Source: Chloroflexota bacterium
GTDB taxonomy: Bacteria; Chloroflexota; UBA11872
Length of the DNA stretch: 64,000 bases
Assembly: GCA_022821905.1 (NCBI GenBank)
Contig: JAJECS010000007.1
Location: 1 to 64,000 of the forward strand
Direction of reading: 5' to 3'
This document shows, in pieces, positions 177 to 15,764 of this stretch (positions within the stretch are counted from its first letter, which is position 1; each line of letters begins with the position of its first letter). The notes beneath the pieces are model-generated. The model was not told the origin of the DNA, searched no databases, and was given only the letters and a program-made list of their open reading frames with translations. A program made the translations under genes and the position numbers.

Positions 177-197
177 AGGGTTTACGCCCGGGGCCCA

Positions 198-425
198 TCA
201 TTCGTCCCGCCATTGGGGCCGCTGGGCGTCGAGCCGCTCGCTGAAGGCGCTGCCGCGGTCGGCCAAACGCCGGCGCTGGCGTTCGAGCACCGCCTCGGCC
301 GCGTCGGCGGCTTCGCTGGCGTCGGGGGTCACCACGACCACCGGCGAGTGCGGCGTCGCGCCCCGGAACCGGTGCACCAGCCGCGCCCGTCGCTCGCGAG
401 GTATCCAGATGATCGGACCAGACAT
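198..425 (-). CDS. Small hypothetical protein downstream of the capsid-like gene
   Basis: This 75-residue protein has no family I recognise. It begins MSGPIIWIPRERR and continues into an Ala/Glu/Arg-rich helical second half, about residues 34-75. The ATG at 425 is supported by an AAAGGA ribosome-binding site about 8 bases upstream, of the same style as the capsid-like gene. It follows that gene on the same strand after a 261-base gap that holds a long palindrome. The position suggests a small virion or accessory protein of the capsid module, but this is inference from context. A longer overlapping reading frame on the same strand has no comparable ribosome-binding site and looks like a shadow. 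Confidence 0.5.
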   Translation of the reverse strand: MSGPIIWIPRERRARLVHRFRGATPHSPVVVVTPDASEAADAAEAVLERQRRRLADRGSAFSERLDAQRPQWRDE

Positions 426-612: not shown

Positions 613-640
613 GTAGGGGCGGTTCGCGAACCGCCCCTAC
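613..640. repeat. 28-bp perfect palindrome
   Basis: The palindrome GTAGGGGCGGTTCG / CGAACCGCCCCTAC has 14-bp arms and no spacer. It sits 47 bases past the stop codon of the capsid-like gene. It has no T-run on either side, so it is a repeat or RNA-stabilising hairpin rather than a classic intrinsic terminator. The flanks at 540-600 also carry pieces of the GGAATGACGG repeat. Confidence 0.75.
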
Positions 641-686
641 GCCGCGCCGGATTCGCTGCATGCGATCTCGGCCGCGGCCCCGCCGT

Positions 687-1541: not shown

Positions 1542-1911
1542 GGACTCTCCTTTCACGCCTCGAACGGGCGTCATGGGAGCGATGAGCGCTCGCCGCGCGG
1601 ATGCGGGAGACGAACCCCTGCGTGTGGGCGTCCCGAAGGCGGCGACCGGGGCACCGGACCGGACTCCTGCCGGTGATGCCGCCGGACCGCCGCCTTCCAG
1701 CCGCGCGGAAGCGTGCGGCGCCTGTCGATCGGGACGCCGGAGCGCCGGCGCCGGTCCGCACGGGCGTCCATCCGCCTTGTGAGGCGCGTCCGCCGCCTGC
1801 GGGCCGGCCCGGCGGCGCCGGGCGCCGACCGAGGCGCACACTCACGGGACCCGCTCGCGCGGCTCCGGGTCCGGAGCGCCGGGCGCATCCGCGTGTGTGC
1901 TTACATGGAGA
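1542..1911. other. Long untranslated leader / intergenic region
   Basis: This GC-rich stretch lies between the capsid-like start codon and its candidate promoter. Reading frames here have Arg/Pro/Ala-rich compositions typical of noncoding high-GC DNA, and none has a convincing ribosome-binding site. It probably is the 5' leader of the capsid-like mRNA. I see no RNA family in it. Confidence 0.4.
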
Positions 1912-1940
1912 ACTCTACGTTACTTTAGTAACGTATGCAA
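1912..1940 (-). promoter_or_regulatory. Promoter with palindromic operator in the spacer (capsid module)
   Basis: On the minus strand the elements are TTGCAT (1940-1935), a 17-base spacer and TAGAGT (1917-1912). The spacer is filled by the perfect inverted repeat ACGTTAC-TTTA-GTAACGT (1917-1934 on the plus strand). The same core CGTTAC-N4-GTAACG recurs at 14859-14874 in front of the portal gene. A dimeric repressor or activator site is the likely reading. The -35 and -10 boxes are individually weak, so the palindrome is the firmer part. Confidence 0.55.
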
Positions 1941-2018
1941 ATGGAGTACGGGACGGTCGCAGGGACTTCTCGCGCCGATGAGGCTTCGGAAAGCTGGCGC
2001 CGGTGCCTCGTCAGACGT

Positions 2019-2086
2019 CGGGGCAGGGTTGCAACCTGCCCCGACCGGAATCTATGTTCGGTGGCCCACGCTGCGTGCAGCGTGGG
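2019..2086. repeat. Two adjacent palindromic repeats
   Basis: CGGGGCAGG-N7-CCTGCCCCG spans 2019-2043. CCCACGCTGC-GT-GCAGCGTGGG spans 2065-2086. The second belongs to a family of similar palindromes seen at 21194, 31847 and 36748, usually flanked by GGTGG or GCCACC. The arrangement is like a REP/BIME cluster upstream of the vapBC-like pair. Confidence 0.65.
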
Positions 2087-2201
2087 AGTGCCTCTTCAGG
2101 CCAGGACGCGCGATTCGCAAGCCGGCTCTACCTGGAAGGGGAGAGGCTAGTCGGTTGATGCTGTTATACTATCGTTTTGATATCACCTACTGGGAAGCAC
2201 C

Positions 2202-2444
2202 ATGCGGCAGATTGCGCTGCGGGGAATTCCGGACGACCTGCACCGTGAACTGAAGGCGGCGGCAGCCCGTAACCATCGCAGCCTGAACGGCGAGATCCTG
2301 GCGCGCCTCTCGGCTTCCGTACGCCCCGGCACCGCGAACATACCAGCGCTGCTGGCGAGGATTCGACAGCGGCACGAGACCGTGGGCCCGGTCGACCTCA
2401 GCGAGGCGGCACTGCGAGAGTTGCGAAACGCCGGTCGCCCGTGA
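2202..2444 (+). CDS. Ribbon-helix-helix antitoxin (FitA/VapB type)
   Basis: This 80-residue protein has an N-terminal Arc/MetJ-type motif, IALRGIPDDLHRELKAAAARN followed by SLNGEILARL. That pattern is typical of FitA-like antitoxins. Its C-terminal tail would thread into the partner PIN toxin. The ATG at 2202 follows GGAAGC. An AT-rich patch just upstream contains TATACT at 2165-2170, a candidate -10 box, but I see no good -35. The stop codon overlaps the toxin start as GTGA, so translation is coupled. The likely role is neutralising the toxin and repressing its own promoter, inferred from the family. Confidence 0.8.
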   Translation: MRQIALRGIPDDLHRELKAAAARNHRSLNGEILARLSASVRPGTANIPALLARIRQRHETVGPVDLSEAALRELRNAGRP

Positions 2445-2839
2445 TTGTGGTCGACACGAACATCATGGTCTTTCTGCTGGTCGGCGGACCAAGCGGGCCT
2501 GACGCAACACAGCTCCTGGAGCGGGATCCCATGTGGGCGGCACCCGGAATCCTGGTCAGCGAGCTGCGCAACGTGCTGGTGGGTTTCGTGCGGCGGGACG
2601 CGCTGTCGCCGGAGCATGCTGAGGTGATGTGCGCGGACGCGGCGGAGGTGCTCGGCGATCGTCTGTTCACGGTTCCGAGCAGTAACGTCTTGGACACAGC
2701 GCTGGCCTGTGGACTGAGTGCCTACGACGCTGAGTTCGTGGTCTTGGCACGGCAATTCGATGTCCCGCTGGTGACCGCTGACCGAGAGATCCTGCGTTCC
2801 GCCACGGACGTTGCGGTCTCGCTAGCCGACCTGTCGTAG
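2441..2839 (+). CDS. PIN-domain toxin (VapC family)
   Basis: This 132-residue PIN-domain ribonuclease is the toxin partner of the preceding antitoxin. Visible PIN acidic residues are VDTNIMV (Asp4), SELRNVL (Glu in the middle), and YDAEFVVLA with TADREI near the end, the usual four-acid metal site. The gene starts with GTG overlapping the antitoxin stop. Family members cleave tRNA, rRNA or mRNA; the target here is unknown. The metal-site residues look intact, so it is probably functional. The sulfatase gene begins 23 bases downstream. Confidence 0.85.
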   Translation: MIVVDTNIMVFLLVGGPSGPDATQLLERDPMWAAPGILVSELRNVLVGFVRRDALSPEHAEVMCADAAEVLGDRLFTVPSSNVLDTALACGLSAYDAEFVVLARQFDVPLVTADREILRSATDVAVSLADLS

Positions 2840-2862
2840 CGATCCCGCGCCGAGGAGCCCCA

Positions 2863-4317
2863 ATGCAACCCCAAAACCTGCTCGTCATCATGTCGGACCA
2901 GCACAACGCGCGCGTGCTCGGCTGCGCCGGGCATCCGGTGGTCCAGACGCCGCATCTCGACGCGCTGGCGGCCCGCGGCACGCGCTTCACCAACGCCTCG
3001 TGCAACATTCCCATCTGCGTGCCGTCGCGGGCCAGCTTCCTCACCGGGCGCTACGGCCACCAGATCGGCGCCTGGGACAACGCCATGCCCTACACCGGCG
3101 AGGCGGCGCCAGGCTGGGGCCACCGGCTGGGCGCCAACGGCCACCACGTCACCACCATCGGCAAGCTGCACTACCGCAACACGCGCGACGACATTGGCTT
3201 GCCGGACCAGCGCATTCCCATGCACGTGATGTTCGAGCGTGGCGACGCATTCGGCTCGATCCGCTGGGACATGCCGCCCGCGCGCCACCAGCTCGGAAAC
3301 ATCCACGCGTCCGGCCCGGGCGATTCGGAATACCTGCGCTATGACGCCACGATCGCCGACGAGGCCTGCGCCTGGTTGCGGGACGAGTCTGGACGGCACT
3401 CCGAGCCGTGGTGCCTCTTCGTCTCCTTTACGCTGCCGCACTTTCCCCTGATCGCACCGCCGGCCGACTACGCGCGCTATCCGCTGGACGACGTGCCGCT
3501 GCCGATCCAGTGGCAGCCCGACGAGTGGCCGGACCATCCGCACGTGTCGGCGTTCCGCAAGGCGCGCGTGCAAACCCCCGACGAATTCCCGGGCGGGGAG
3601 CCCACGCGCCGCGCGATCGCCGCTTACCTGGGGATGTGCACCTACCTGGACCGGCAGATCGGGCGCGTGCTGCACGCGCTGGAGGTCTGCGGGCTGGCCG
3701 AGGACACTCGCGTGATCTACACCAGCGACCACGGCGAAACCCTGGGCGACTACGGCCTGTGGGGCAAGAGCGTGATGTATGACAGCGCCGTGGCCGCGCC
3801 GCTGATCCTGGCCGGACCGGACGTGCCGGCCGGCGCAGTGCGCGACGTGAGCGTCTCGCTGGTGGACGCCTTTCCGACGATCTGCGAGGGCGTCGGCGTG
3901 CCGCTCGAAGCCGCCGACGCGGACCTGCCCGGCATGTCGCTGTGGCCGCTGGCGCGCGGCGAGGGACCGGCGTCCCGTACGACGTTTGCCGAGTACCACG
4001 CCAGCGGTTCGGTGTCGGGCGCCTTCATGCTGCGCGATGAGCGCTGGAAATACGTGCACTATCACGGCTTCCCGCCGCAGCTCTTCGACCTGGCCAACGA
4101 CCCGGAGGAGCGCCGCGACCTGGCGGGCGATCCGTCATACGCCGCCCACCTTCAGCGGTTCGAGGCGCAGCTGCGCACGATCGTCGATCCCGAGGCAGTT
4201 GAGGCCGAGGCCAAGGCGGCCCAGCGCCGGCTGGTGGAGCACCGCGGCGGCGAGGCCGCCGTGCGCGCTGCCGGCGCCCAGATCAACTTCACTCGCGCGC
4301 CGGATCAGTTCCTGTAG
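2863..4317 (+). CDS. Sulfatase (arylsulfatase/choline-sulfatase type)
   Basis: This 484-residue enzyme hydrolyses sulfate esters. The N-terminal metal site appears as LLVIMSDQH. The signature Cys52-Val-Pro-Ser-Arg is the site converted to formylglycine by a maturase, followed by ASFLTGRYG. A later YTSDHGETLGDYGLWGK supplies further metal and sulfate ligands. No signal peptide is visible, so it is probably cytoplasmic. The ATG at 2863 follows GAGGAG. The C-terminus carries the usual subdomain (WKYVHYHGFPPQLFDL). The substrate cannot be read from the sequence; sulfated glycans or small sulfate esters are plausible. No maturase gene is present in the window. Confidence 0.9.
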   Translation: MQPQNLLVIMSDQHNARVLGCAGHPVVQTPHLDALAARGTRFTNASCNIPICVPSRASFLTGRYGHQIGAWDNAMPYTGEAAPGWGHRLGANGHHVTTIGKLHYRNTRDDIGLPDQRIPMHVMFERGDAFGSIRWDMPPARHQLGNIHASGPGDSEYLRYDATIADEACAWLRDESGRHSEPWCLFVSFTLPHFPLIAPPADYARYPLDDVPLPIQWQPDEWPDHPHVSAFRKARVQTPDEFPGGEPTRRAIAAYLGMCTYLDRQIGRVLHALEVCGLAEDTRVIYTSDHGETLGDYGLWGKSVMYDSAVAAPLILAGPDVPAGAVRDVSVSLVDAFPTICEGVGVPLEAADADLPGMSLWPLARGEGPASRTTFAEYHASGSVSGAFMLRDERWKYVHYHGFPPQLFDLANDPEERRDLAGDPSYAAHLQRFEAQLRTIVDPEAVEAEAKAAQRRLVEHRGGEAAVRAAGAQINFTRAPDQFL

Positions 4318-4510
4318 GCGAGAATCGTGCTGGGTCGCGCACCACGCTGGAACTTCGCCGCGCTAGATACGCGTTCCAGCGACGGGAGCGGCGGTCTCGG
4401 CGGATTCGATGCGCCGTGCGGCCGGCCGCTGTAGCCTCAACGATCCGCCGCGTTCCCTCGAGCGCTCAACCCACACCAGTGGATCCTGACATGCTCCGCC
4501 CCCTCACTTG

Positions 4511-5932
4511 ATGATGGGAATTGCCGTTTGGCAAGTGGTGGGGTGGACGGCACGGCTGCTCCTGCTGGGCCTCGTGATCTTTTGGTGGGGCGGATATGTG
4601 GCGACGCACTTGTTCAGCCTCGCGTTCCCGGAGCTGCTCCGGCCCTCGAACCCGACGCTCGGCCGGCTGGACGCCAACAGCGAAGGGACGATCGCGAACG
4701 CGGTTTCCGCCGCGACATTGGCGAGCGTGACGCTGCTGGCGCTCGCCACGGCTGTCGTCAGCCGCCGTCGCTCGGCCGGCTGGATCACCGTCGGGGGATG
4801 GGCCGCGCTGGCGCTCACGACGGCGGTTTTGGCCTATATCGAGCTCTTGGTCGTCAAGCGAGGCAGTCCAATCCCGGTTTTTGCGTACGCGGGCCGCCTC
4901 GGCCTCCCATGGCCCGTCCTCGTGAGTCCGCTGGTCGTCATCTTTCTGCTGGCGATGTGGCTCTTTATCCGCCGGGGTTTGGTCACGCAGCCGGCCCGCG
5001 CGCCACTGACGCTTGGAATCGCCTGCTGGGTGTTTGCGCTCGTGCACGATGCGCTCGATGCAGGTCTGTTCGCCGAGCGAGCGGCGGCGACTGCCTATGT
5101 GCCCGAAGAAACCTTGGAGTTCGGCGGAGCCCTCCTGATCGGGCTGAGCGCCGTCATCGCCCTGCGCCACGGCCGTCCGCCGCCATATCCCCTGTTCGGC
5201 GGCCGCTGGCGCCGCTCGCTCGTCGGGTCGCTCGCGACGGTCGTGGTGCTTGGCGGCCTCGCGGCGGTTTTTCTCTTCCGGGCGCCGCTGGTTGAGGCAC
5301 CGGCGGCCCACATGCGTGCCGGCGCCTTCGGCGTGATCCTCGCCGACCAGGAAGCCGTCGTTCAGGAAATCCGCATGCCCGCCACGCCCGTGCAGCGCCT
5401 CAGACTCCTGCTGTCCAACTGTCAGTCATCCGGTCCTCCGGGAACTATCGCGGTTCGCGTCGCACCCATCGAGACGGCCGACCGTATCCTCGCCGAGGGG
5501 TCGGTCCAGGTTCCCGCGGGAGACTGCCCGCGCTGGTACGACATCGAGCTCCTGCCGCCACTCACCGCAGCCGAGGGCGAGGCGCTGGCCCTGCAGGTGT
5601 CGGCCGTGGTCGCCCCGGGCGCCGAGCTTCGCGTGGGCGCCACCAAGGGCGACCGCTATCCCGATGGGCGGCTATGGGTCAATGGCGCCCTGGCTTGGCC
5701 GGATCAAAATCTGGAGTTTGTCGCCTACGGTGCGCCCGACCCCACGTGGAGCAAGCTGCTGGCCATTCGGCGGCTGCTCGCCACCGACATCCGCTGGTGG
5801 CTGCTGACCGCCGATCTGGGCATCGCGCTGACCCTAGTCGCCTTCATTCCAGCTCTTCTCCTGGCAAGTATCCGCCCGCGCGCTCAGGACGCGCCCGGAT
5901 CGCCCGACAGCCACCGCCCAACCACCCCATGA
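4511..5932 (+). CDS. Multi-pass membrane protein with extracytoplasmic domain, copy A
   Basis: I do not recognise the family. The protein is about 473 residues. About seven hydrophobic segments occupy residues 8-270, starting with TARLLLLGLVIFWWGGYVA. A soluble, probably outside-facing beta-type domain follows, about residues 275-430, with GDCPRWYDIELLPPLTAAEG and LWVNGALAWPDQNLEFVAYG. A final transmembrane helix near 440-465 ends the protein. The start is ambiguous because TTG-ATG-ATG lie in a row at 4508-4516. Its stop overlaps the start of copy B (ATGA). The two copies are obvious tandem duplicates, aligned end to end. The C-terminal domain resembles the exposed domains found on some membrane glycosyltransferases, and a GT-C enzyme lies next door, so a cell-surface polysaccharide role is a guess. 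Confidence 0.75.
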   Translation: MMGIAVWQVVGWTARLLLLGLVIFWWGGYVATHLFSLAFPELLRPSNPTLGRLDANSEGTIANAVSAATLASVTLLALATAVVSRRRSAGWITVGGWAALALTTAVLAYIELLVVKRGSPIPVFAYAGRLGLPWPVLVSPLVVIFLLAMWLFIRRGLVTQPARAPLTLGIACWVFALVHDALDAGLFAERAAATAYVPEETLEFGGALLIGLSAVIALRHGRPPPYPLFGGRWRRSLVGSLATVVVLGGLAAVFLFRAPLVEAPAAHMRAGAFGVILADQEAVVQEIRMPATPVQRLRLLLSNCQSSGPPGTIAVRVAPIETADRILAEGSVQVPAGDCPRWYDIELLPPLTAAEGEALALQVSAVVAPGAELRVGATKGDRYPDGRLWVNGALAWPDQNLEFVAYGAPDPTWSKLLAIRRLLATDIRWWLLTADLGIALTLVAFIPALLLASIRPRAQDAPGSPDSHRPTTP

Positions 5933-7350
5933 CCCGACGCGCCATCTGGCAACTGGTGGAGTGGACGGCACGGCTGCTCCTGCTGGGCGCGGTGATCTTC
6001 TGGTGGGGCGGATATGTCGCGACGCACCTCTTTAGCCTGGCGTTCCCGGAACTGCTTCCGCCCTGGGACCCCACCCTGGGCCGGCTGGACGCCGACAACG
6101 AAGGCACGATTGCGAACTCCGTGTCCGCCGCCGGCTTGGCGTGCGTGACGGGGCTTGCGCTCGCGGCGGCCGGCGTCAGCTTCCGCCGCTCGGACGGCTG
6201 GATTGCCGTCGGCGGGTGGGCCGCGCTGGCCCTGACGACCGCGGCCTTGACCTTCGAGGAGCTCGCCGAGTTCAAGGAGCGAGGACCAATCTCCCTCTTC
6301 GACCAAGCCGGACGCGTGGGCCTCCCGTGGCCCGTTCTGGTGAGTCCGCTGGTCGCCATTTTCGTGCTGGCGATGTGGCTCTTTGTCCGCAAGGGTTTGG
6401 GGACGCGGGCGGTCCGCGCGCCGCTGACGCTTGGAATCGCCTGCTGGGTGTTTGCGCTCGTGCAGGAGGCGATCGGGCGATGGATGCCCACCGGCGGAGC
6501 GGTGACGCTGGGGTATGTGCTGGAAGAAACGGCGGAGTTCAGCGGGACCCTGCTGATTGGGCTCGGTGCGGTCGGCGTGTTGCGCGATGGCCGCCCACCG
6601 CCGTTTCCCCTATTCGGCGGCCGCTGGCGTCGCTCGCTCGTTGGGTCACTGGCGGCGCTGGCCATTCTTGGAAGCCTCGCGCTCGCGTTCCTGTTCCGTG
6701 CCCCACTGATCGAGGCGCTGGCCCCCTATACGCGTTCCGGCGCCTTCGAAGTGCCCCTCGGCCGCCAGGAAGCCCTGGTCCAGGAGTTCCGCATGCCGGC
6801 CACGCCCGTGCAGAGCCTGGGACTCCTGCTCTTCAATTGCGAGCGGGCCGGCGATGGGGGAGCGGTCACGGTGCGGGTCACACCCACTGACACGCCCGAC
6901 CGCACCCTTGCCGAAGGGTCGATCGAGGTCCCGGTGGGCGACTGCCCACGCTGGAAGACCGTCGAGCTCCTACCGCCACTCACCGCAGCGGAGGGCCAGC
7001 GGCTCGCCGCGCAAGTTGCGGTTGATGTCGAGCCTGGCGCGAATCTTGGCGTTGGTCTGACGAAAGGAGATCGCTACGAGGACGGCCGGCTCTGGGTCAA
7101 CGGCGAGCTGGCCTGGCCGGATCAGAACCTGGAATTCGTGGCCTACAGCGCGCCCGAGGCGACGCTCGGCAAGCTGGCCGCGATTTGGCGGCTCCTGACC
7201 ACCGATCCACGCTGGTGGCTGCTGGCGGCGGACCTTGTCATCGGGCTGACCGCGATCACGCTGATCCCGATCGTCCTCGTGGAGAGCGTTCGGTCGGGGC
7301 CGCCTGGCCGCGGGCGAGGGCCCCTGGGGCGCGGCCCGATCTCCACTTAG
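5929..7350 (+). CDS. Multi-pass membrane protein with extracytoplasmic domain, copy B
   Basis: This tandem paralog of the preceding gene is 473 residues long and has the same topology. It has about seven N-terminal helices, an outside beta-type domain with DCPRWKTVELLPPLTAAEG and LWVNGELAWPDQNLEFVAYS, and a last helix. The ATG at 5929 overlaps the stop of copy A by four bases, so the two are translationally coupled. Divergence is spread evenly, with more changes in helix-loop regions such as residues 100-115, while the outside domain core is well kept. Both copies look intact, so selection has kept two versions, perhaps as a heterodimer. Function unknown. Confidence 0.75.
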   Translation: MTRRAIWQLVEWTARLLLLGAVIFWWGGYVATHLFSLAFPELLPPWDPTLGRLDADNEGTIANSVSAAGLACVTGLALAAAGVSFRRSDGWIAVGGWAALALTTAALTFEELAEFKERGPISLFDQAGRVGLPWPVLVSPLVAIFVLAMWLFVRKGLGTRAVRAPLTLGIACWVFALVQEAIGRWMPTGGAVTLGYVLEETAEFSGTLLIGLGAVGVLRDGRPPPFPLFGGRWRRSLVGSLAALAILGSLALAFLFRAPLIEALAPYTRSGAFEVPLGRQEALVQEFRMPATPVQSLGLLLFNCERAGDGGAVTVRVTPTDTPDRTLAEGSIEVPVGDCPRWKTVELLPPLTAAEGQRLAAQVAVDVEPGANLGVGLTKGDRYEDGRLWVNGELAWPDQNLEFVAYSAPEATLGKLAAIWRLLTTDPRWWLLAADLVIGLTAITLIPIVLVESVRSGPPGRGRGPLGRGPIST

Positions 7351-7351
7351 C

Positions 7352-8815
7352 TCAGCCGCCGCGGCGGCGCCAGGCCTCGCCTGCGCCGCGGGTCTCGACC
7401 GCCCAGGCGAGGCCGAGAACCACGAGCAGTCCCGCCGCCAGCACCGCGATCGACCAAGGACCCAGGCGGTGCACCACGAAGAGATCGGGCCCGATGAATC
7501 CATCAACCCACTGGCGGGCCAGCCGCAGGTGGGCGCCGATGAGCGAGAAGTGGGGATTCCATTCGATTTGCTCCGGCCGCGCCCCGTGGTCCCAGAGATT
7601 GCGCCAGCCCGACTGGTAGTCGAACAGCACGCCCAGCACCGACAGACCCGTCGACCACGCCGCGAGCCCCAGCGTCGCCAGGCGCATGCCCAGCGTCGCC
7701 GACGCCGACTGAATCGCCAGCCCCACGCCGAGCGCCAGGAACGGCGTGACGGTGGTGAGATAGCGAGGGCCCCACGAGACGCCGCCGGACCAGTCGTCGA
7801 ATGACCCATAGCCGAGGATCGCCAGCACGATCAGCGCCAGCATCACCAGCCAGACCGGCCGACGCGACGTCGCGCCGAGGATCCCCCACAGCCCCACCGC
7901 GGCGACGGGCATGAAGACCAGCAGGCCAAAGCTGGGACTGGCCAGCACACCGAACATGCCGATATAGGCACGGTCCGTCTGCCAGAGGATCGACGCCGTC
8001 CGATAGCCGACATCGAAGAAGTCGCCGGTTCGGTAGAGGTTCCAGAGCCCGATGCCCGGGACGGCCACGACGGCCCACGCCGCGGCAAACGCCAGCCCGC
8101 GGGTCAGACCGACTCGCGACAGCCGCTCCCCGCCCAGCAGGCTCAACACACCGACCGCGGGCGCAAGGACCACGAACTCCGGCCGCGTCAGCGCGGCAAG
8201 TCCGGCGAGGACGCCGGCAAAGGTCCAGGCTCCAGCTCCCGATCGCGAGCCGGTGACCGCGACAAACGCCAGCACGCTGAACAGCGCGGCGAGCGGGATG
8301 TTGGCCAGTCCCTGGGCGTAGACCCAGAGGGGGCTGGCAAACGCCAGCACCAGCGCCGCCGCTGCGGCGTAGTGGGGCCGCAGGCCAAGATTGCGCCCCA
8401 GCAGAAACGTGGCACCCACCAGCAGGGCGGCAATCGGCGGCCCGTAGAGCAGCGCGGCCACCGGCCGCACCGCACTGGGTTGAGGAAACGTGGCCGACGG
8501 GGGCGGCGGCTTGGAATCAGTCCAGCGAGCCACCAGATAGGCCGGCGACATCCCCACCCACGACAGCAAGCCATACCGACCAGTGGTGCGGTCCATCGAC
8601 GAGTGCCGCAGCGTCAGCAGTTGCTCGCGAGGAAACGGCTGCTCGCCGGACAGATCGGCGCTGCCCGTTTCGACCAGCGCCCGGGCCGAGGCGTAGTTGG
8701 TGATCTCGTCGACGCTGTAGGCATGCGCCCCCGAGGAGAGCACATAGACCAGTCCCGCCAGCAGCGCCAGCGCCGCCGCGCGGGCGCCGTCGAGTCTCGA
8801 CGCGCCGCGCTCCAT
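7352..8815 (-). CDS. GT-C fold membrane glycosyltransferase (PMT/ArnT-like)
   Basis: This 487-residue protein has about ten or more transmembrane helices. The first outside loop contains AYSVDEITNYASARALVETG, an acidic signature like the catalytic loop of GT39/GT83 enzymes that transfer sugars from polyprenyl phosphate. The soluble C-terminal part is short. The ATG at 8815 was chosen because it begins just before the first helix. A longer in-frame extension is Arg/Ser-rich and has no hydrophobic segment. It converges with the tandem membrane proteins, two bases from copy B's stop. It probably glycosylates a lipid or protein at the outer face of the membrane; the acceptor is unknown. Confidence 0.75.
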   Translation of the reverse strand: MERGASRLDGARAAALALLAGLVYVLSSGAHAYSVDEITNYASARALVETGSADLSGEQPFPREQLLTLRHSSMDRTTGRYGLLSWVGMSPAYLVARWTDSKPPPPSATFPQPSAVRPVAALLYGPPIAALLVGATFLLGRNLGLRPHYAAAAALVLAFASPLWVYAQGLANIPLAALFSVLAFVAVTGSRSGAGAWTFAGVLAGLAALTRPEFVVLAPAVGVLSLLGGERLSRVGLTRGLAFAAAWAVVAVPGIGLWNLYRTGDFFDVGYRTASILWQTDRAYIGMFGVLASPSFGLLVFMPVAAVGLWGILGATSRRPVWLVMLALIVLAILGYGSFDDWSGGVSWGPRYLTTVTPFLALGVGLAIQSASATLGMRLATLGLAAWSTGLSVLGVLFDYQSGWRNLWDHGARPEQIEWNPHFSLIGAHLRLARQWVDGFIGPDLFVVHRLGPWSIAVLAAGLLVVLGLAWAVETRGAGEAWRRRGG

Positions 8816-9121
8816 GACGCCGCCGTCCGAGCTCGCGTCGGCGGATGACCTATTCAAGCTCCGCCAGCGCGCCGCCAGGGTGACGGTGCGCCGGGAGACC
8901 AGGAAACCTCGCGCAATCGGAAGTCGAATCGAATAGTCGCCGCAACCGACGGTGCGACTGAGTATGGCCGCGCCCGGTCCGCGCTCGCCAGCGCGACGCA
9001 CAGGCGTCCACCGATCCCGCACGCTCCGGCTCGCGGACGGCCTTCACCCGCGCTGCGGTGATGTGGGAGGTTGCCGGCACGCCTCGGATACTGCGAACCT
9101 CAGTTCGCGCTACTCAGCCTG
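8816..9121. other. Intergenic, no gene seen
   Basis: This 306-base stretch lies between the GT-C gene and the NYN gene. I see no ribosome-binding site, RNA gene or strong palindrome, only a short imperfect repeat (GCGAACCTCAGTTCGC near 9091). Confidence 0.4.
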
Positions 9122-9937
9122 CTAGCTGGAATAGTCGGGCTGCTCCGGAGCTCGCAGCGAACGGCAGCCTTCCCTGAATCCCCGCCGTGCATCGTTTATT
9201 CCGCCGGAGTCCCGCCAATTCGCCATGGCCCGGACGCGCCTCCTTAACTCCCAGTCGATGTACGGCGGCAACCACGATCCGCTACGGAGCACCGCGCGCC
9301 GCTCGAACCCTTTGAGCGAACCTACATATTCCGTCGCGAGCTGCCGGCCAAGCTCGATTGCCGTAGCCGCGGGCGTCACGATGTCGGCGAAATCCGGCTT
9401 GGAAAAATGAGGTCGTAGCATTTCCTCTCCGACGAGCAGGAGTTGATCGGCCTCCATCACCAGCGTGTCCGACAGGTTCGAGCCCTGGGGCGGCTCAATG
9501 CCGAGCAGGACAACCTCTACTCCGCGATCCTGAGCCTCGCGCACGCCCTCGCGCAGATCCTCGTCGCCACCCAGCAGAAATGCTGTCGAGATTGCCTGCC
9601 GCTCAGCCAGGATCACCAAGTCACGCACGATTAGCGAGTCAACACCTTTCTGTTCGTGGTTGACGAGGCGGCCGATCCGGAGCTTTACCCGCGGAAGCAG
9701 CCCGATCGCTTCGTGGATTCCATGGGGGATGCCGCGAACAGCACCGTCGTACCAGTAGGTACGCAGCCAGCGGCCACGTCCGTCAAGTACGAGGCCGTTG
9801 CATAACTCGGATAACGCCGGCACGAAGCTCTCGACGTCAAGAAAGATCGAACCGCGGTCGCCCGCGCCGAGGCACGCTTGACCACCCGCCATATAGAGGT
9901 AGCCCGCGTCGACGAACACACAGTAGCGATTGGTCAT
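9122..9937 (-). CDS. NYN-domain ribonuclease-like protein (LabA/DUF88)
   Basis: This 271-residue protein has an N-terminal NYN/PIN-like nuclease fold. The start YCVFVDAGYLY gives the first catalytic Asp. KGVDSLIVRDLVILAER and LLGGDEDLREGVREA supply the other conserved acids of the metal site. The C-terminal 100 residues, rich in Arg and Trp, are not recognised. The start codon ATG at 9937 is fixed by the conserved beta strand that begins five residues later. An intrinsic-terminator-like hairpin ends two bases before this ATG and leaves no room for a ribosome-binding site. A Fic gene is divergent on the other side. The likely role is RNA cleavage in stress or defence, inferred from the family. 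Confidence 0.8.
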   Translation of the reverse strand: MTNRYCVFVDAGYLYMAGGQACLGAGDRGSIFLDVESFVPALSELCNGLVLDGRGRWLRTYWYDGAVRGIPHGIHEAIGLLPRVKLRIGRLVNHEQKGVDSLIVRDLVILAERQAISTAFLLGGDEDLREGVREAQDRGVEVVLLGIEPPQGSNLSDTLVMEADQLLLVGEEMLRPHFSKPDFADIVTPAATAIELGRQLATEYVGSLKGFERRAVLRSGSWLPPYIDWELRRRVRAMANWRDSGGINDARRGFREGCRSLRAPEQPDYSS

Positions 9938-9939
9938 CT

Positions 9940-9972
9940 AAAAAAAGTGGGGGCTCCAATCAGGAGCCCCCA
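9940..9972 (-). terminator. Intrinsic terminator-like hairpin abutting the NYN start codon
   Basis: On the minus strand a perfect 10-bp stem, TGGGGGCTCC / GGAGCCCCCA with a TGATT loop, is followed by AC and seven T residues, then AG and the ATG of the NYN gene. It has every feature of a Rho-independent terminator for leftward transcription, placed exactly where the ribosome-binding site should be. It may be an attenuator, an autoregulatory cleavage target, or the end of an upstream small RNA. Confidence 0.8.
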
Positions 9973-10297
9973 ACGCGTTTCGGAATGGCCCCAATCAACG
10001 GGGCACGGGAAGTTTCCGCCATCACGCACTCAGAGTCAAGACCGCGAGCGTAGGGTGAATCCCTCTGATGAACTCGCGCACCGCTACTGAGAGGCTGATC
10101 GTATCGCGGGCGAGCATTAGCGCTGCCAGCTAGGCAGGCACGAGGCCCACTTGGCCATGAGATGCCATTCACAAGGCGCACGGTCCTCCACTGGCTCGTC
10201 AATCAACGGAGCCCGCACGCCGGAGCGGTCTTTGTAGCCGTGTAGGCGGAGCGCGACCACGCATGGGCCGCTCGATTGAATGATATATCGCGTTGCC
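9973..10297. other. Divergent intergenic region between NYN and Fic genes
   Basis: This stretch of about 325 bases holds a second small hairpin, GCCCC-AATCAAC-GGGGC at 9988-10004. I see no open frame with a ribosome-binding site. I looked for SRP RNA, tmRNA, RNase P RNA and 6S-like signatures on the minus strand, because a terminator follows, and recognised none. An unclassified small RNA here remains possible. Confidence 0.35.
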
Positions 10298-10341
10298 CAA
10301 GAGATTATTCCATTGACAAGGGAGGCTTAGCGCGTTATTTT
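10298..10341 (+). promoter_or_regulatory. Strong promoter with overlapping operator for the Fic gene
   Basis: TTGACA (10313-10318), a 17-base spacer and TATTTT (10336-10341) form a good sigma-70-type promoter. An imperfect inverted repeat, CAAGAGA-TTAT-TCCATTG (10298-10315), overlaps the -35 box. Nearly the same arrangement is found at 34402-34445 in front of a decayed Fic fragment. The promoter position rules out the upstream ATG at 10276 as the gene start. Confidence 0.8.
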
Positions 10342-10374
10342 CTCCGAGAAGGAATTGGTTCATTGGCTGAACGC

Positions 10375-11535
10375 ATGGAATTCACGCTAACGACTCACGC
10401 TGGCGAGTTCGATACGGACTCACTGTTCCGCCGGCTCTACGAGGTCCGCACGCTGATCCCCGGCGGCTACGAGCCCTATTTCCGCGAGCGCGCGCGCTAT
10501 CTGAGCACGCTCGCCTCGGCGAAGGTGGAGGGCAACCCGCTCGACTACGAAGAGGCCCGGATCGTGTTTTCGGGCGAGGCCGAGCCGGCCCGTCACGAGG
10601 AGCGCGAGCTGACGAACCTGCTGGGCGCGTATGAGCTGATGGAGCAGCTGGCGGCGGACCCGACCGCAGGGATCGACCAGGGACTGCTGCGCGCCATGAA
10701 CTTGCTGATTCTCGAGGGCTTGCCGGAGGCGATGTCACGGCGCCGCGGGCAGTACCGCACCGGACCCAGCCTGATCATGGACGATGAGTCGCGCGAGATC
10801 CGCTACCGGCCGCCGCCCCCGACCTGGGTCCCCGAGCTGATGGACCGACTGGTCGCCCACATCCAGCGGTGGACGGCCGAGGAACGCTATCCGGCGCCGA
10901 TCATCGCGGCGCTGGCGCACGCCGGACTGGTCGCGATCCATCCCTTCGAGGAGGGGAACGGTCGGACGGCCCGTCTCCTGGCCGAAATGATCCTGCACCA
11001 GGCGGGATGGTCGGCCGAGGGCATGTTGGCGCTGAACGTGGTGCTCTGGCGCAACCGCGACGGCTACTACCAGGCACTCCGCGATACGCACGGTCTGGAC
11101 TTCCAAACGGCGGTCGATGGAACGCCGTTCGCCGGGTTCCACACCGACGCCCTGAGCACGGCCGCCACGATGCTCGAACACTTCGTCGTGGCGTTCAAGG
11201 GACGTCAGGACGCGTGGCGGGACGAGTTCGGCGCACGTCTGAACGAGCGGCAGACGCTAGGCCTGACCTACATCATCGACACGGGCTCCGTGTCCAGCTC
11301 CATGTACGCGCGCCTGATCGGCGCGTCCCCGTCCACCGCCTACGCGGACCTGACGCACCTGGTGTCCTGCGGCGCCGCCGTGCGATCGGGCAAGGGACGG
11401 AATACGCGCTATGCGGTGGATCCCGACCTGTGGGCTCGGCTGCTGGCCGCCGTCGAACGGTCGGGTTGGGCGGAAGCCCAACGGAGCAAACGCCGCCGGC
11501 GCGACTCAAGCGGCAGCGACGGCTCGGAGCAGTAG
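10375..11535 (+). CDS. Fic-domain protein with inhibitory helix and winged helix-turn-helix
   Basis: This protein of about 386 residues is predicted to transfer AMP or another nucleotide group to target proteins. The Fic core motif is HPFEEGNGRTAR from His189. An N-terminal inhibitory motif, Ser48-x3-Glu52-Gly53 (SAKVEGN), makes it a class II self-inhibited Fic. The C-terminal part (MYARLIGASPSTAYADLTHL) looks like a winged helix that could bind its own operator. The start is uncertain. ATG at 10375 lacks a good ribosome-binding site, while in-frame TTG at 10363 has GAAGGA about 9 bases upstream. It is transcribed from its own promoter, divergent from the NYN gene. Confidence 0.85.
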   Translation: MEFTLTTHAGEFDTDSLFRRLYEVRTLIPGGYEPYFRERARYLSTLASAKVEGNPLDYEEARIVFSGEAEPARHEERELTNLLGAYELMEQLAADPTAGIDQGLLRAMNLLILEGLPEAMSRRRGQYRTGPSLIMDDESREIRYRPPPPTWVPELMDRLVAHIQRWTAEERYPAPIIAALAHAGLVAIHPFEEGNGRTARLLAEMILHQAGWSAEGMLALNVVLWRNRDGYYQALRDTHGLDFQTAVDGTPFAGFHTDALSTAATMLEHFVVAFKGRQDAWRDEFGARLNERQTLGLTYIIDTGSVSSSMYARLIGASPSTAYADLTHLVSCGAAVRSGKGRNTRYAVDPDLWARLLAAVERSGWAEAQRSKRRRRDSSGSDGSEQ

Positions 11536-11593
11536 CCCAGCGCTGCTCACTCGGGGGCGTCGGCCTGCCGCCGCGCTGCCGCCGGACAAGGCG

Positions 11594-12865
11594 CTAGCCC
11601 ACCAGCGCGAACGGCCGGTACGACCGCGCGGGACGCGCGACGGGGCCGAAGCGGTCGTAGAGCCAGTAGGCCAGCGCCTTGATGGCGTGGTTGTCGCGGT
11701 CGATGGGCAGCTCCGAGATGGGCCGGTCGTCCCGCGCTTCGTGGTAGCGGTAGCTGCCAAACTCATGCATGAGCGCGCGGCAGGCCGGCGCCGCGGTGAG
11801 CCGCGGCTCGCCGCTGGCCGGGTCCCGCAGAAACGTGCGCAGCCGGTCGATGCCGTCCTGTATCCGCACGGGTCGGGACCGCAGGCGCAGCCCGGCAAGG
11901 GCCTGCCAGATCTCGATCTGGCTGGCGCTGGCGTGGTGCTGGCGCCCGGCGATGTCGATCACCCCGCCGCTCACGCGGGGCCACCACCAGCGACGCCGGC
12001 ACTCGGCGATCACCTCGGCGGCCACCATTCGGCGGTGATAGACCTCGTCGATCACCCGCGCCACGCCCGCCGCCTCGGTCACCGCCAGCACGGCGTAGGC
12101 GCCGGCATACCCCGGATCGATGGCCAGCTCAACGGACTCGATGCTGGCCGGGTCGACGGATGCCACGTGCCGCGCCGGTTCGAACTCGGGGAACACGAGG
12201 GTCGCGGGCGGGCAGGGCACGCCGCCGAAGCGCTCCCGAAACACCGCCGCCGGATAGGTCGTTTCCAGCGCCTCGATCTCGGCGTCGGCGCGCCCGCCTG
12301 GAAACAGCGTCCGGTTGGACCAGGTGGGGATGGAGAAGGACGCCGCGCCGTCGACATTCGCCACCCGCCAGGCGCTGAAGTGGTCCGCGTACCAGCCGCG
12401 CGAGCCCTCGAAGGTGCCGCTCAGCCAGAGCCAGCCCCGGCGCTCCGCCACGCGACCGCGCAACCGCAGGTAGACCTCATAGGGCAACTGGGCCGCCTCG
12501 CAGCCCAGAATCCCGTCGGGCGCCTCGCCCGCCAGCCGCGCCGGATCGCGGGCCGACTTGGTCACGATCCGCGCCCCGGTGCGCAGCGTCATCCGGCACT
12601 GCTCCGAGCTTGGGAAGCTCAGACTGTCGACGGCGCCAATGACGGCGAACGCCTCGGCCAGGTAGCGAAACTCGGGCCGGCACAGCTCGTAGTCCGGGCC
12701 CACCAGCCAGTAGAGGCGGCCTTCGAGGCAGCGGCCGAACAGCTCCATGGCGGCGCTGCGACTCTTTCCGGCGCGCTCGCCGCCGGCGATCAGGCGAATA
12801 CGCGCGGACGAGTCGTGCGCCTGCCGCTGCTCGGGACTCGGGGCGTAGCCGACGCGCCGCCACAG
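11594..12865 (-). CDS. Phage-like terminase large subunit
   Basis: The protein is about 423 residues if translation starts at CTG 12865. The ATPase half has a clear Walker A, GGERAGKS (residues 28-35), a probable Walker B region ILGCEAAQ and a coupling motif LWLSGTFEG. The nuclease half begins with ELAIDPGYAGAYAVLAV and contains GGVIDIAGRQHHA. The open frame begins after a stop at about 12914, and there is no ATG, GTG or TTG before the Walker A. The first ATG (12748) would delete it. Start at CTG 12865, five bases after the upstream stop, or a frameshift from the upstream gene, are the options. The gene packages DNA into capsids in phages. The portal gene lies upstream in the same run. Confidence 0.75.
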   Translation of the reverse strand: MWRRVGYAPSPEQRQAHDSSARIRLIAGGERAGKSRSAAMELFGRCLEGRLYWLVGPDYELCRPEFRYLAEAFAVIGAVDSLSFPSSEQCRMTLRTGARIVTKSARDPARLAGEAPDGILGCEAAQLPYEVYLRLRGRVAERRGWLWLSGTFEGSRGWYADHFSAWRVANVDGAASFSIPTWSNRTLFPGGRADAEIEALETTYPAAVFRERFGGVPCPPATLVFPEFEPARHVASVDPASIESVELAIDPGYAGAYAVLAVTEAAGVARVIDEVYHRRMVAAEVIAECRRRWWWPRVSGGVIDIAGRQHHASASQIEIWQALAGLRLRSRPVRIQDGIDRLRTFLRDPASGEPRLTAAPACRALMHEFGSYRYHEARDDRPISELPIDRDNHAIKALAYWLYDRFGPVARPARSYRPFALVG

Positions 12866-12869
12866 CGCC

Positions 12870-13103
12870 TCACGCGCTGTGCGCGAGGCGGGCGCGAATC
12901 TCCTCCAGCAGGTTCACCAGCGCGTCCTCGGACGCCTCGGCGGAGCGGTCGAAGGCGTACTGCATCACCAGCTCGGTGGCCCAGCGCTCGCCTTCGCGCG
13001 CTTTGTCGATGACGGCCGTGCAAATCTGGTCCGTGTGCTTCTCGGCCAGTTCGCGAAACCGGGCCGGGAACTCGTGCGGCGACGCACGGCGCTTGACGGC
13101 CAT
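12870..13103 (-). CDS. Small protein between portal and terminase genes
   Basis: This 77-residue, charged, helical protein starts MAVKRRASPHEFPARFREL. Its ATG overlaps the portal stop (TGATG), which indicates translational coupling and fixes this start over a longer in-frame one at 13169. No family is recognised. Size and position next to the large terminase make a small terminase subunit or a packaging accessory possible, but the usual order would place that subunit before the large terminase and portal. Its 3' end overlaps the unassigned 5' end of the terminase frame. Confidence 0.55.
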   Translation of the reverse strand: MAVKRRASPHEFPARFRELAEKHTDQICTAVIDKAREGERWATELVMQYAFDRSAEASEDALVNLLEEIRARLAHSA

Positions 13104-14788
13104 CACGATCCGGCCGCCGGAGCCGCGCGCGTCGCGTCCGCCGCTTCCGCGGCGCCTTCGCGGCGCCACAGCTCGCGCCGGACCTCCGGGTCGTCCAGCA
13201 TCTCCTCGCGCAGGATCTCCGCCTGCATCTCCGCCGCGTTGGCGATGCCAAGCTTCTCCTGCATCGCCCAGCGTCGGGACGCCAGCTTGGCCGCCACCAG
13301 GTTGGCGGCGTAGGTGCCCTGGGCAATCTCATCCGCCGGGGCCAGGGCCTCCAGCTTGGCGCGCACCGCGTAGTAGCCGTTGACATCGCGTGGCGACAGG
13401 CCGAGCCACGCCGCGTCGTCATCGCCATAGACGTAGACCGTTTCCCGCACCCGGTGCTCGACCAGGCGCCAGGCCAGCTGCACGATGCGCTCCAGCGCCT
13501 GCTCGGCGTGCCGCGTGATCTGGTTGAACGACAGCCGCGCCGCGTTGATCAGCTGGTTCAGGTAGTAGCCACTGGTGTTGCCGTCGGGCGCGATGCCGAA
13601 GAGCACCGTGGGCACGCCCGCCTGGTCGATCATCGAGCGCGTGAGCGCGATCAGTTCGTCCAGATCGGGCGGCGTGCCCGACCACTGCAGCAAGCTCAGG
13701 TCCTCGCCGGGAAACAGCGGCAGAATCTCGCCCGGCCGAAACTCGATCGGCGGCGGGCGGCCGTCATCGCCCAGCGCGGCGTCGCTGCCGGCGAATCCGG
13801 TGAGCTTGGGCGTCGGATAGGCGTAGAGGTGCACGGCGTTCTGCTTCATCGTCAGCAGCCGGTCGAGCAGCGGCACGAGATATTCCACCGACGCCAGCAT
13901 GGACTCGCCGGCCTTGGCCGGATCGCGGCTGGGCGATTGGTTGCCGTGCGCCATCACGTAGGGCACCGCGCCGTAGGCGTGGCGTCCCCGACGCACCAGG
14001 TGGCCGTCCACCAGATAGGCGAAGTGCTCGCGGTCCCAATACTCGATCACGCGCACGCTGCCGCCGGCGGTTGCGGGACCCTCGCTCGCCGGCGCGCGGC
14101 CCGCCGGAGCGAGGCGGCCCGACCGGCGGTCTTCGACCAGACCGTAGCGCCGCATCATGAGCCACTTGGGTCGCTCGGAAATCTCCAGGCAGGCCTCGAT
14201 GCCGTCGTCGCCGATCAGCGGATAGAACGTGAGCACGTCCACGTCGCGCCAGGCCAGGGGGAACGGCGCCGCGCGCTTGAAGCGAGTCGACCGCTCATTG
14301 AAGCCGGCGTCCGTCTCGGGACCGGCGTCGCCGCGGCGCGGATAGCCCGTCCAGCGCTCGGGCACGTAGACCAGCTTCATCACGCCGGTGCCGTCGGCCA
14401 CCAGCGCGTCGACGAACATGCCGAAGATGTCGCGCCCGGCGTCGTTCTTCATGCGCCGCAGCGCGGCGGCCGTCCAGCGCTCGCGGCGCGAGGCGTTCGC
14501 CCGGCTCTCCGGCGTTTGGTCGGCCGGCGGCACGCTGATCGTGGGGTGGTTGGCGGTGAGGCTGCCCACGACCCGCTTGAGCTGCTCCCGCGCCAGCGGC
14601 GTCCGCACCTCGCGCGTCGTGGCCCGGTAGGCCGCCGGAATATCGACCGGCTCTTCCATGAACCGCAGCCGCCGCAAGCGCTCGATACGGGCGTTGCGCC
14701 CGCCGAATTCGGTGAGCAGATGCTGCTCCAGCTCTTGCACATGGGTCTCGGACGGCGGCGGCAATGCGTCGTGGCGGGACTCGGACAA
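13103..14788 (-). CDS. Phage-like portal protein
   Basis: This 561-residue protein has the general plan of portal proteins. A helical N-terminus (LTEFGGRNARIERLRRLRFM) is followed by a long wing/stem region with VGSLTANHPTISVPPADQT and ADGTGVMKLVYVPERW. Near residues 380-410, ELIALTRSMIDQAGVPTVLFG is typical of portal stem and tunnel segments, followed by a long helical crown. Translation starts at TTG 14788 with GGGAGG at 14792-14797. The promoter/operator at 14850-14878 gives a leader of about 55 bases. In phages the dodecameric portal is the DNA gate at one capsid vertex. The gene looks intact, and no adjacent head or tail genes are present. Confidence 0.7.
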   Translation of the reverse strand: MSESRHDALPPPSETHVQELEQHLLTEFGGRNARIERLRRLRFMEEPVDIPAAYRATTREVRTPLAREQLKRVVGSLTANHPTISVPPADQTPESRANASRRERWTAAALRRMKNDAGRDIFGMFVDALVADGTGVMKLVYVPERWTGYPRRGDAGPETDAGFNERSTRFKRAAPFPLAWRDVDVLTFYPLIGDDGIEACLEISERPKWLMMRRYGLVEDRRSGRLAPAGRAPASEGPATAGGSVRVIEYWDREHFAYLVDGHLVRRGRHAYGAVPYVMAHGNQSPSRDPAKAGESMLASVEYLVPLLDRLLTMKQNAVHLYAYPTPKLTGFAGSDAALGDDGRPPPIEFRPGEILPLFPGEDLSLLQWSGTPPDLDELIALTRSMIDQAGVPTVLFGIAPDGNTSGYYLNQLINAARLSFNQITRHAEQALERIVQLAWRLVEHRVRETVYVYGDDDAAWLGLSPRDVNGYYAVRAKLEALAPADEIAQGTYAANLVAAKLASRRWAMQEKLGIANAAEMQAEILREEMLDDPEVRRELWRREGAAEAADATRAAPAAGS

Positions 14789-14849
14789 GAGGGCCTCCCG
14801 GTGTCATTGGCGGGGCGAGCGCGGACTGCGCCTGCCGGTTACAGCCCCA

Positions 14850-14878
14850 ATCCTAGATCGTTACAATAGTAACGCCAA
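14850..14878 (-). promoter_or_regulatory. Promoter with palindromic operator in the spacer (portal-terminase module)
   Basis: On the minus strand the elements are TTGGCG (14878-14873), a 17-base spacer and TAGGAT (14855-14850). The inverted repeat CGTTAC-AATA-GTAACG (14859-14874) covers the spacer. It shares both six-base arms with the element at 1918-1933 before the capsid-like gene. It probably is a binding site for one common regulator, which is not encoded recognisably in the window. Confidence 0.6.
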
Positions 14879-14954
14879 AGGCGAGTTGGTAATCCAGCAG
14901 GCATTCTCGGACCGCGCGTTCGCCCCGCGGGGTGCTAGCCGCGAAGCGCGTCGC

Positions 14955-15719: not shown

Positions 15720-15764
15720 GCCACCGCGCGCCGCCGGCTGTCATAGGCTGACGCTGATTGAGCC

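Follow-up and report, generated by a model that had tools for sequence, protein, structure and literature searches.

A common operator dyad at the promoters of two operons of a putative gene-transfer-agent-like element in Chloroflexota

The window, a 64-kb stretch of DNA from a Chloroflexota bacterium, carries two separate groups of phage-like genes, here termed operon A (beginning with the capsid gene) and operon B (beginning with the portal gene). A predicted promoter with the same inverted repeat precedes each of them. The features are as follows.

198..425, minus strand: gene of a 75-aa protein downstream of the capsid gene; 16 of the 17 other genomes examined have relatives
687..1541, minus strand: gene of the major capsid protein (284 aa), present once in 18 of 19 genomes of the family
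1542..1911, minus strand: 5' leader of the capsid gene, conserved and regarded as non-coding
1631..1717, minus strand: predicted RNA hairpin within the leader, conserved, with stacked helices and a small hairpin
1912..1940, minus strand: predicted promoter A; -35 TTGCAT at 1935-1940, -10 TAGAGT at 1912-1917, 17-bp spacer
1918..1933, no strand: operator A, dyad CGTTAC-N4-GTAACG within the promoter A spacer
11594..12913, minus strand: large terminase (TerL) frame, 439 aa from stop to stop; the Walker A motif (GGERAGKS) and the nuclease region are conserved
12870..13103, minus strand: small protein encoded between the portal and TerL genes, likened to TerS by position only
13103..14788, minus strand: gene of the portal protein (561 aa, start codon TTG), present once in 18 of 19 genomes of the family
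14850..14878, minus strand: predicted promoter B; -35 TTGGCG at 14873-14878, -10 TAGGAT at 14850-14855, 17-bp spacer
14859..14874, no strand: operator B, dyad CGTTAC-N4-GTAACG, which shares 2 bp with the -35 box

An earlier note on this DNA had named the first gene capsid-like and the distant ones portal and terminase. The capsid identity is firm, with matches to Phage_capsid_4 (6e-10) and to PHROG families, and so is that of TerL (phrog_2, 1e-23, scored on the orthologue from genome G001). The portal matches are weak (phrog_156, E 0.029 and 0.0039), and this assignment leans also on gene order. The small TerS-like protein matched no family in profile searches. Searches limited to the DNA around the element found TerL in 15 genomes besides that of the window, but not in the examined DNA of G007 and G012.

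Besides the capsid and the 75-aa protein, operon A includes connector-like, beta-rich (approximately 785 aa) and fibre-like proteins. In six of 17 genomes it also has lysin and holin-like genes, which were not found in the remaining 11 flanks examined, all from g2, the sister genus of the window's genus (g1). No scaffold or tape-measure gene was recognised in the element. Structure models of the 785-aa protein (pLDDT 60) and the connector-like protein (pLDDT 70) are weak and provide hints only: P22 gp10-like proteins were among the matches of the former in a viral fold search, at low TM-scores, and the latter matched carbohydrate-binding modules in a PDB search, which we take to reflect an inserted domain present only in g2. 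In a PHROG scan the 785-aa protein alignment had no match and the connector-like alignment had weak matches in three member-family pairs; the 785-aa protein had no match in a phage collection.

In g1, 376-377 nt separate the end of the dyad from the capsid start codon. An N-terminal extension of the capsid protein was rejected for this leader, because the upstream frame is not consistently open across the family; in four g2 genomes the capsid open frame is just 301 aa long. The leader matched no Rfam family. Leader alignments took in 17 of 18 genomes, with the G014 leader left out. A search with the hairpin model, scoring at most 150 first-look candidates per genome, gave 18 matches, 17 of which are the sequences used to build the model.

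Both copies of CGTTAC-N4-GTAACG are exact and lie where the earlier note had placed them, 12.9 kb apart, and the window has no third copy even with up to two mismatches. Shuffled windows contain a mean of 0.79 matches at two mismatches, and 20 of 100 of them had two or more, so that the dyad is informative only through being exact and through where it lies. In the window's own assembly (2,950,031 bases, 31 contigs) the two sites are the sole exact copies (reversed-pattern control, 0); no site has exactly one mismatch, and 35 others have two, versus 111 for the control. Exact copies scattered over the genome away from phage-like genes, the outcome that the note had set against its own proposal, are absent.

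The operator is conserved in the genus. The core GTTAC-N4-GTAAC fills 11 of the 12 capsid and portal promoter slots of six g1 genomes (approximately 19.4 Mb), and each of its 11 sites is at one of these promoters (reversed-pattern control, 7). The twelfth slot, the G003 capsid site, is one mismatch away from the core. The longer pattern with one mismatch allowed has a single extra site in the six genomes, G001:C22. The two operons of G002 are on opposite strands with about 40 kb between them, and each has the dyad. The arms are kept and the centre drifts: variable columns number 2 of 24 in the arms, 4 of 8 in the centre, 15 of 40 in the 20 nt upstream and 22 of 60 in the 30 nt downstream, the last count being inflated by a 2-nt shift downstream of the dyad in the G004 portal row. 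A global regulator such as LexA has many sites, its own promoter among them; the g1 pattern differs, the core dyad being confined to two promoters in the six genomes. It occurs at no third gene there, and autoregulation through the dyad is therefore not visible.

The boxes and spacing of promoter A are identical in all six g1 genomes, and the DNA farther upstream diverges. At promoter B the -10 box is identical in all six, and the other five genomes have -35 TTGGAA with an 18-bp spacer, or 19 bp if the -35 is read as TTTGGA or CTTGGA. The dyad had been described as filling a 17-base spacer at each promoter; this is accurate for promoter A and approximate for promoter B, where it covers the last two -35 bases and ends 3 bp before the -10. 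The register of the dyad differs between the two promoters. Neither of the g1 -10 boxes, TAGAGT and TAGGAT, matches TATAAT perfectly.

The g2 genomes have a different and less specific dyad, which overlaps a near-consensus -10. Its pattern agrees with 12 of the 24 promoter slots of g2 capsid and portal genes; of its 34 matches, 18 lie elsewhere, several ahead of housekeeping-type genes. A wider g2 regulon was rejected: translations of the genes behind the extra sites read as SecD-like, hydantoinase-like and M3-peptidase-like, which are unrelated, and we do not call them regulon members. The g2 dyad stands at all three relocated g2 TerL genes and at TerL in none of the seven g2 genomes in which TerL follows the portal gene; in these the 900 bp upstream of TerL are mostly portal gene. 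The latter count is limited to these seven, because five of the 15 TerL genomes belong to g1, for which the g2 pattern is no fair control. Another sequence conserved in g2, CGTTACAACGGTAACG, was considered as a further operator and rejected, since in L057 it lies, by our own reading, inside a glycosyltransferase-like reading frame and is taken as coding.

The 18 genomes with single-copy capsid and portal genes span two genera, and none of these genes has a stop. Mean dN/dS of the element genes is 0.08-0.13, versus 0.16 and 0.08 for two host genes (four genomes for TerL, four for sulfatase and three for RelA, with TerL and sulfatase read from stop to stop). Distances correlate with those of host RelA, with r 0.98 for the capsid (18 genomes) and 0.97 for the portal (17 genomes); correlations within genera are lower, 0.36 to 0.78. 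The G007 portal was left out of the portal dN/dS and distance sets. A search of 381 other Chloroflexota, scoring at most six first-look candidates per genome, gave no capsid match at 1e-10. Capsid and portal genes that share a contig are separated by about 5 to 39 kb, a stretch that includes a sulfatase gene and others of host type. The genome G018 is a single contig, in which the element is flanked by host genes; Pfam searches of 16 of the 21 predicted non-element genes at 415-455 kb identified ATP synthase and other metabolic genes, left two of the 16 without any match, and revealed no gene for an integrase, a repressor or replication. The surroundings of the operators likewise showed no repressor gene. 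The capsid and packaging set is inherited and probably domesticated, judging from these comparisons.

Six features define a gene transfer agent (GTA) in the available excerpt of Kogay et al. 2022 (PMC9662315): tailed-phage ancestry, encapsidation of mostly random host DNA, endogenisation, a genome of its own that is not fully packable, vertical inheritance and delivery to cells. The element has tailed-phage-derived particle proteins (capsid by Pfam and PHROG, TerL, and weakly the portal), is endogenised over several loci, with host genes between its split operons and, in G018, on its flanks, and is mostly vertically inherited with host co-diversification (18 of 19 genomes, RelA correlations). 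Given the split layout, its own genome is likely not fully packable. The alphaproteobacterial and spirochaete GTAs, classed as viriforms in the same excerpt, are likewise tailed-phage-derived, endogenised, vertical and often multi-locus; they belong to other hosts, and their DNA encapsidation and delivery are known from experiments.

The layout is also similar to that of FpGTA from Faecalibacterium (Borodovich et al. 2026, PMC12946183). As described in the available part of that report, FpGTA has two separated operons, short-tail-type proteins and no replication genes. One FpGTA operon has TerS, TerL, portal and capsid and the other has tail fibre, holin and endolysin, so that the capsid is joined to TerL and portal there and to tail genes here. 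FpGTA has a Bacillota host and a scaffold gene, its particles and protected DNA were demonstrated, and that part of the report mentions no common operator, unlike the g1 element. The Caulobacter GTA, in the excerpt of Gozzi et al. 2022 (PMC9632790), shares a main cluster with distant loci under one control layer. Its repressor RogA recognises inverted repeats with a 4-bp spacer, GGAA-N4-TTCC, a similar layout with a different dyad, and targets the gafYZ activators and not structural operons.

Capsid homologues (35-37% identity) occur in Pelagibacter phages HTVC026P and HTVC112P and in Phage DSL-LC06. Of these, HTVC026P and DSL-LC06 are full phages that have tape-measure genes and whose genes run TerL, portal, scaffold, capsid; the Chloroflexota element has a different gene order, and neither scaffold nor tape measure is recognisable in it. 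In four of 22 uncultivated viral loci from IMG/VR (L109, L112, L113 and L114), a capsid with 36% identity is followed, in the order seen here, by relatives of the connector-like and 785-aa proteins (24-31% identity over part of the protein); these four have no portal or TerL match within at most 5 kb on each side.

Dyads found at two promoters only, with conserved arms, are what a single DNA-binding protein common to both would be expected to leave, in support of the proposal that a common regulator governs the distant virion genes. We consider it rather probable (about two chances in three) that operons A and B belong to one domesticated GTA-like element under a dimeric regulator dedicated to it, a repressor being the likeliest kind. 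Operon B would provide the packaging motor, and operon A the head, probably a short tail and, in some genomes, lysis functions (lysin and holin-like). Each g1 operon would begin at a sigma-70-type promoter with the common dyad in its spacer; the regulator would sit on both promoters, and on its departure the operons would fire together, possibly leading to particles that package and transfer host DNA. Weighing against this scheme are the lack of a regulator gene among those found, the differing dyad registers, the incomplete and unspecific g2 dyad, the lysin and holin-like genes found in only some genomes, the unrecognised scaffold and tape measure, and the lower correlations within genera. 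A broader reading seems to us evenly balanced: a lineage of GTAs that arose independently from phage in Chloroflexota, probably sponge symbionts, in which a private operator present at no other gene links separate head, tail and packaging operons and was switched between the genera at both promoters, moved terminase genes kept or gained a copy, and the single-copy leader hairpin adds a second control layer.

The common protein of the same element could instead be a spacer-binding activator, for example of the MerR type, as the dyad between the -35 and -10 and the imperfect g1 -10 boxes might suggest. MerR promoters have the dyad centred in an over-long spacer, typically of 19-20 bp, whereas the capsid spacer is 17 bp in all six g1 genomes, and the near-consensus -10 under the g2 dyad is a better fit to occlusion. 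We therefore find an activator conceivable but unlikely, although in the excerpt of PMC9632790 GafYZ activates the GTA genes of Caulobacter directly. The particle might also kill or otherwise serve its host in a PBSX-like or tailocin-like way, without DNA transfer; PBSX, according to the available part of PMC12946183, packages host DNA without injecting it. The constrained portal and TerL, with their conserved motor and nuclease motifs, argue for at least DNA packaging, and we rate such a role as distinctly unlikely.

Phage ancestry invites two further readings. Operators of one phage repressor can occupy several promoters, and a decaying prophage remnant, kept by chance, could have retained the common operator as a relic of such control; the lack of recognisable scaffold and replication genes is consistent with decay. 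Intact single copies in 18 of 19 genomes of two genera, dN/dS near 0.1, operator arms kept while their flanks diverge, and no repressor gene beside the operators make this very improbable. An active temperate phage of the window's genus, reacquired repeatedly, finds some support in the capsid relatives in the 22 IMG/VR loci (31-47% identity), four Pelagibacter phages (34-36%), Phage DSL-LC06 (37%) and a Microcystis phage (29%). It is extremely improbable in view of the single copies in 18 of 19 genomes, the absence of a 1e-10 match in the 381 other Chloroflexota searched, divergence that follows host RelA, operons split by host-type genes, and no integration or replication genes seen around the element in G018. 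A chance match of the two dyads would be unremarkable at two mismatches, as the shuffles demonstrate; it is refuted by dyads that are exact and unique in the assembly and that six species have kept at both promoters.

GTAs have been characterised in few lineages and are hard to separate from prophage remnants by sequence alone, as stated in the excerpt of PMC11841831; no report of a Chloroflexota GTA was among the matches listed in a search of titles and abstract beginnings of the open-licence literature. The GTA-like element described here belongs to an uncultured Chloroflexota family, probably sponge-associated, that keeps capsid and packaging genes under purifying selection. Because the operator is unique in the assembly, its regulon is directly readable, and one 16-bp site provides a concrete handle for the regulator search. 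If gene transfer is true, protected Chloroflexota DNA would be expected in virus-like particles of the host sponge.

The dyad CGTTAC-N4-GTAACG occurs in two promoters of the window.

1918-1933, within minus-strand promoter A (TTGCAT-17-TAGAGT): dyad with centre TTTA on the plus strand, directly abutting the -10 box and ending one base short of the -35 box
14859-14874, within minus-strand promoter B (TTGGCG-17-TAGGAT): dyad with centre AATA, moved 3 bp relative to A and reaching two bases inside the -35 box

The earlier note had reported both copies, and no third exact copy was found in the entire assembly (31 contigs totalling 2,950,031 bases, one of which begins with the window). The scan revealed no scattered copies, only the capsid-side and portal-side promoters. 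The note's description of the dyad as filling the 17-base spacer is correct for promoter A and approximate for promoter B. Sites with one mismatch are absent from the assembly; sites with two mismatches number 35, versus 111 for a reversed-pattern control.

Promoter A is followed by the capsid gene (Phage_capsid_4, 6e-10; phrog_267, 3e-12) and a 75-aa gene, after which the contig ends. In related genomes operon A goes on with a 273-407-aa protein, named connector-like as a guess, followed by a beta-rich protein of ~785 aa and one that is fibre-like (phrog_892, 2e-8). The ~785-aa protein gene is present in 17 of the 19 family genomes and was found neither in the window's own assembly (G000) nor in G006. 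A second, g1-like copy lies inside G010, a genome of the sister genus g2 (L191, G010:C24:1177-3501), and is probably contamination (listed contamination 8). An M23+SLT lysin and a small membrane protein, which we read as holin-like, come next in 6 of 17 genomes examined (G001-G005 and G018); the remaining 11 flanks, all from g2, yielded neither. A ~333-aa gene of operon A, glycosidase-like by reading (L085:15338-16411), occurs in 5 of 17 genomes examined, all from the window's genus, g1. The connector-like proteins of g2 (L096:11139-12350 and others) carry an inserted stretch, absent from three aligned g1 proteins, with a predicted fold similar to carbohydrate-binding modules.

Promoter B precedes the genes for portal, for a small protein called TerS-like solely from its position, and for TerL, which shows the Walker A sequence GGERAGKS and conservation across its nuclease region. 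The reading frame of TerL overlaps the 3' end of the TerS-like gene (12870-12913, minus strand), and neither G000 nor G005 has an ATG, GTG or TTG close to where that frame opens; translation may begin at a CTG, be coupled or involve a frameshift. A sulfatase gene lies between the operons on the other strand, where g1 adds a Fic-domain gene. In the window the latter (10276-11535, plus strand; PF02661, 2e-16; phrog_5978, 4e-36) is convergent with TerL, which it also adjoins in G001, G002 and G005; it was not seen in four g2 regions compared. Other genes of the window include an NYN-domain gene (9122-9937, minus strand; PF01936, 3e-9), an NYN-like gene judged by reading (18129-18758, minus strand), with a relative in other g1 regions, and two related membrane-protein-like genes in tandem (4508-5932 and 5674-7350, plus strand).

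The six g1 genomes contain 11 sites of the core GTTAC-N4-GTAAC, all at a capsid or portal promoter (reversed-pattern control, 7); the twelfth slot, the G003 capsid site, is one mismatch from the core. The full dyad with at most one mismatch adds a single site, in G001:C22. In G002 the capsid and portal genes are ~40 kb apart on opposite strands, and both retain the site. Variable columns make up 2/24 of the arms, 4/8 of the centre, 15/40 of the upstream 20 nt and 22/60 of the downstream 30 nt; conserved arms around a variable centre are as expected for a putative dimer site.

The two-promoter finding is real, and the interpretation offered earlier, that one regulator would switch both modules, is well supported by comparison, the core being restricted to these promoters. 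Since the core lies at two promoters only in six genomes, in the RNA polymerase binding zone and with both arms conserved, the best explanation is a dimeric regulator dedicated to these promoters, which would bind both. A global regulator such as LexA acting at both sites is unlikely, because none of the g1 genomes has a third core site. No gene for the proposed dedicated regulator was seen beside either dyad. Occlusion of the spacer argues for control by repression, and release of the regulator would start expression of the genes for packaging, head, tail and lysis at the same time. A similar arrangement is described for RogA of Caulobacter, a repressor whose target is an inverted repeat with an N4 spacer, although RogA acts one step higher than the regulator proposed here (PMC9632790).

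The dyad, with at most one mismatch, is absent from the capsid and portal promoters of g2. Aligned promoters suggest a different spacer dyad there, GTAYNC-N5-GNRTAC, which would extend into the -10 box. Including the -10 box, this pattern has 34 matches in 19 genomes (control, 1): 12 at capsid or portal promoters, for which 12 genomes offer 24 slots, 3 at TerL genes that have been displaced, 1 overlapping on the opposite strand and 18 elsewhere, several before unrelated genes. With half the slots matched and 18 of 34 matches elsewhere, the g2 signal is a feature of promoters that is not confined to this element and not present at all of its promoters. For TerL genes that come after portal, the pattern is absent from up to 900 bp upstream of TerL (0/7 g2 genomes); it is also absent before portal-linked TerL in g1 (0/5), for which it is no fair test. 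All three displaced TerL genes (G010, G014, G015) have it 630-890 bp upstream. The relocated TerLs of G014 and G015 (L138:6809-8308 and L144:153-1652) carry an extra N-terminal stretch which, in our own reading, looks helix-turn-helix-like, as if a DNA-binding part had been fused.

In g1, 376-377 nt separate the dyad from the capsid start codon, and this leader contains an RNA element.

1631-1717, minus strand: conserved hairpin in the capsid 5' leader

On 17 leaders, one of which served to draw the structure, 89.4% of cells pair (shuffles 84.5, 0/500 as high; 37-46% when slid 1-3 columns). Both-side changes (26 cells; shuffles 12.8, 0/500) and the covariation score (0.199; shuffles 0.128, 0/500) also exceed shuffles. 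Two counts speak against it: pairs with double changes (6) do not exceed shuffles (294/500 as high), and further pair types (13) fall short of the shuffled number (496/500 as high). A covariance model of the 17 leaders, with 150 candidates scored per genome, was run on 24 genomes of the order and found a single copy in 18 of them, always in the capsid leader; 17 of these matches are training sequences and the independent one is G014. The model has no match in the sister family. In window 1-16000 Rfam gave nothing but a single sub-threshold snoRNA match, which lies outside the hairpin. Translational control of capsid synthesis is our guess at its role.

Capsid and portal genes are each present in 18 of 19 family genomes as a single copy without internal stop; the genome lacking both, G006, is 76% complete. 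The capsid was found neither in the sister family (0/5 genomes) nor in 381 Chloroflexota genomes outside the family (400 searched at 1e-10; all 18 matches belong to the family). In named records, all 15 loci of close relatives are Chloroflexota MAGs; the RHO, COS and similar prefixes of their isolate names presumably denote sponges. Mean dN/dS is 0.093 (g1) and 0.099 (g2) for capsid, 0.079 and 0.131 for portal, 0.103 for TerL (4 genomes), 0.160 for sulfatase (4) and 0.081 for RelA (3). Nucleotide distances for RelA/SpoT, a host gene found in 19/19 family genomes (Pfam RelA_SpoT, 2e-43), are correlated with capsid distances at r 0.978 (18 genomes) and with portal distances at r 0.973 (17 genomes). 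The correlations are weaker inside g1 (capsid r 0.36, p 0.09; portal r 0.78, p 0.01) and inside g2 with G018 left out (r 0.69, p 0.0005; r 0.43, p 0.045), and tip groupings disagree in places. The element is therefore inherited vertically across genera, with some exchange possible within them. Around the element in G018, a one-contig genome, 16 of 21 predicted non-element genes at 415-455 kb were Pfam-scanned, and none of the 16 was recognised as an integrase, as a repressor or as serving replication; two gave no match, and the others include ATP synthase and further metabolic genes.

Six features define gene transfer agents (GTAs) in PMC9662315; the element has three, and the other three are a matter for experiment. 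The nearest published layout seen is FpGTA, described as having two operons, a short-tail type and lysis genes in the tail operon (PMC12946183). GTAs are often spread across several loci and hard to distinguish from remnants by sequence alone, according to PMC11841831, a caution that holds for the Chloroflexota element too. Judged by titles and abstract openings, the literature searched reports no Chloroflexota GTA. The bigger finding is a GTA-like element that occurs throughout the family, with a putative GTA function, a putative regulator and a putative sign of control.
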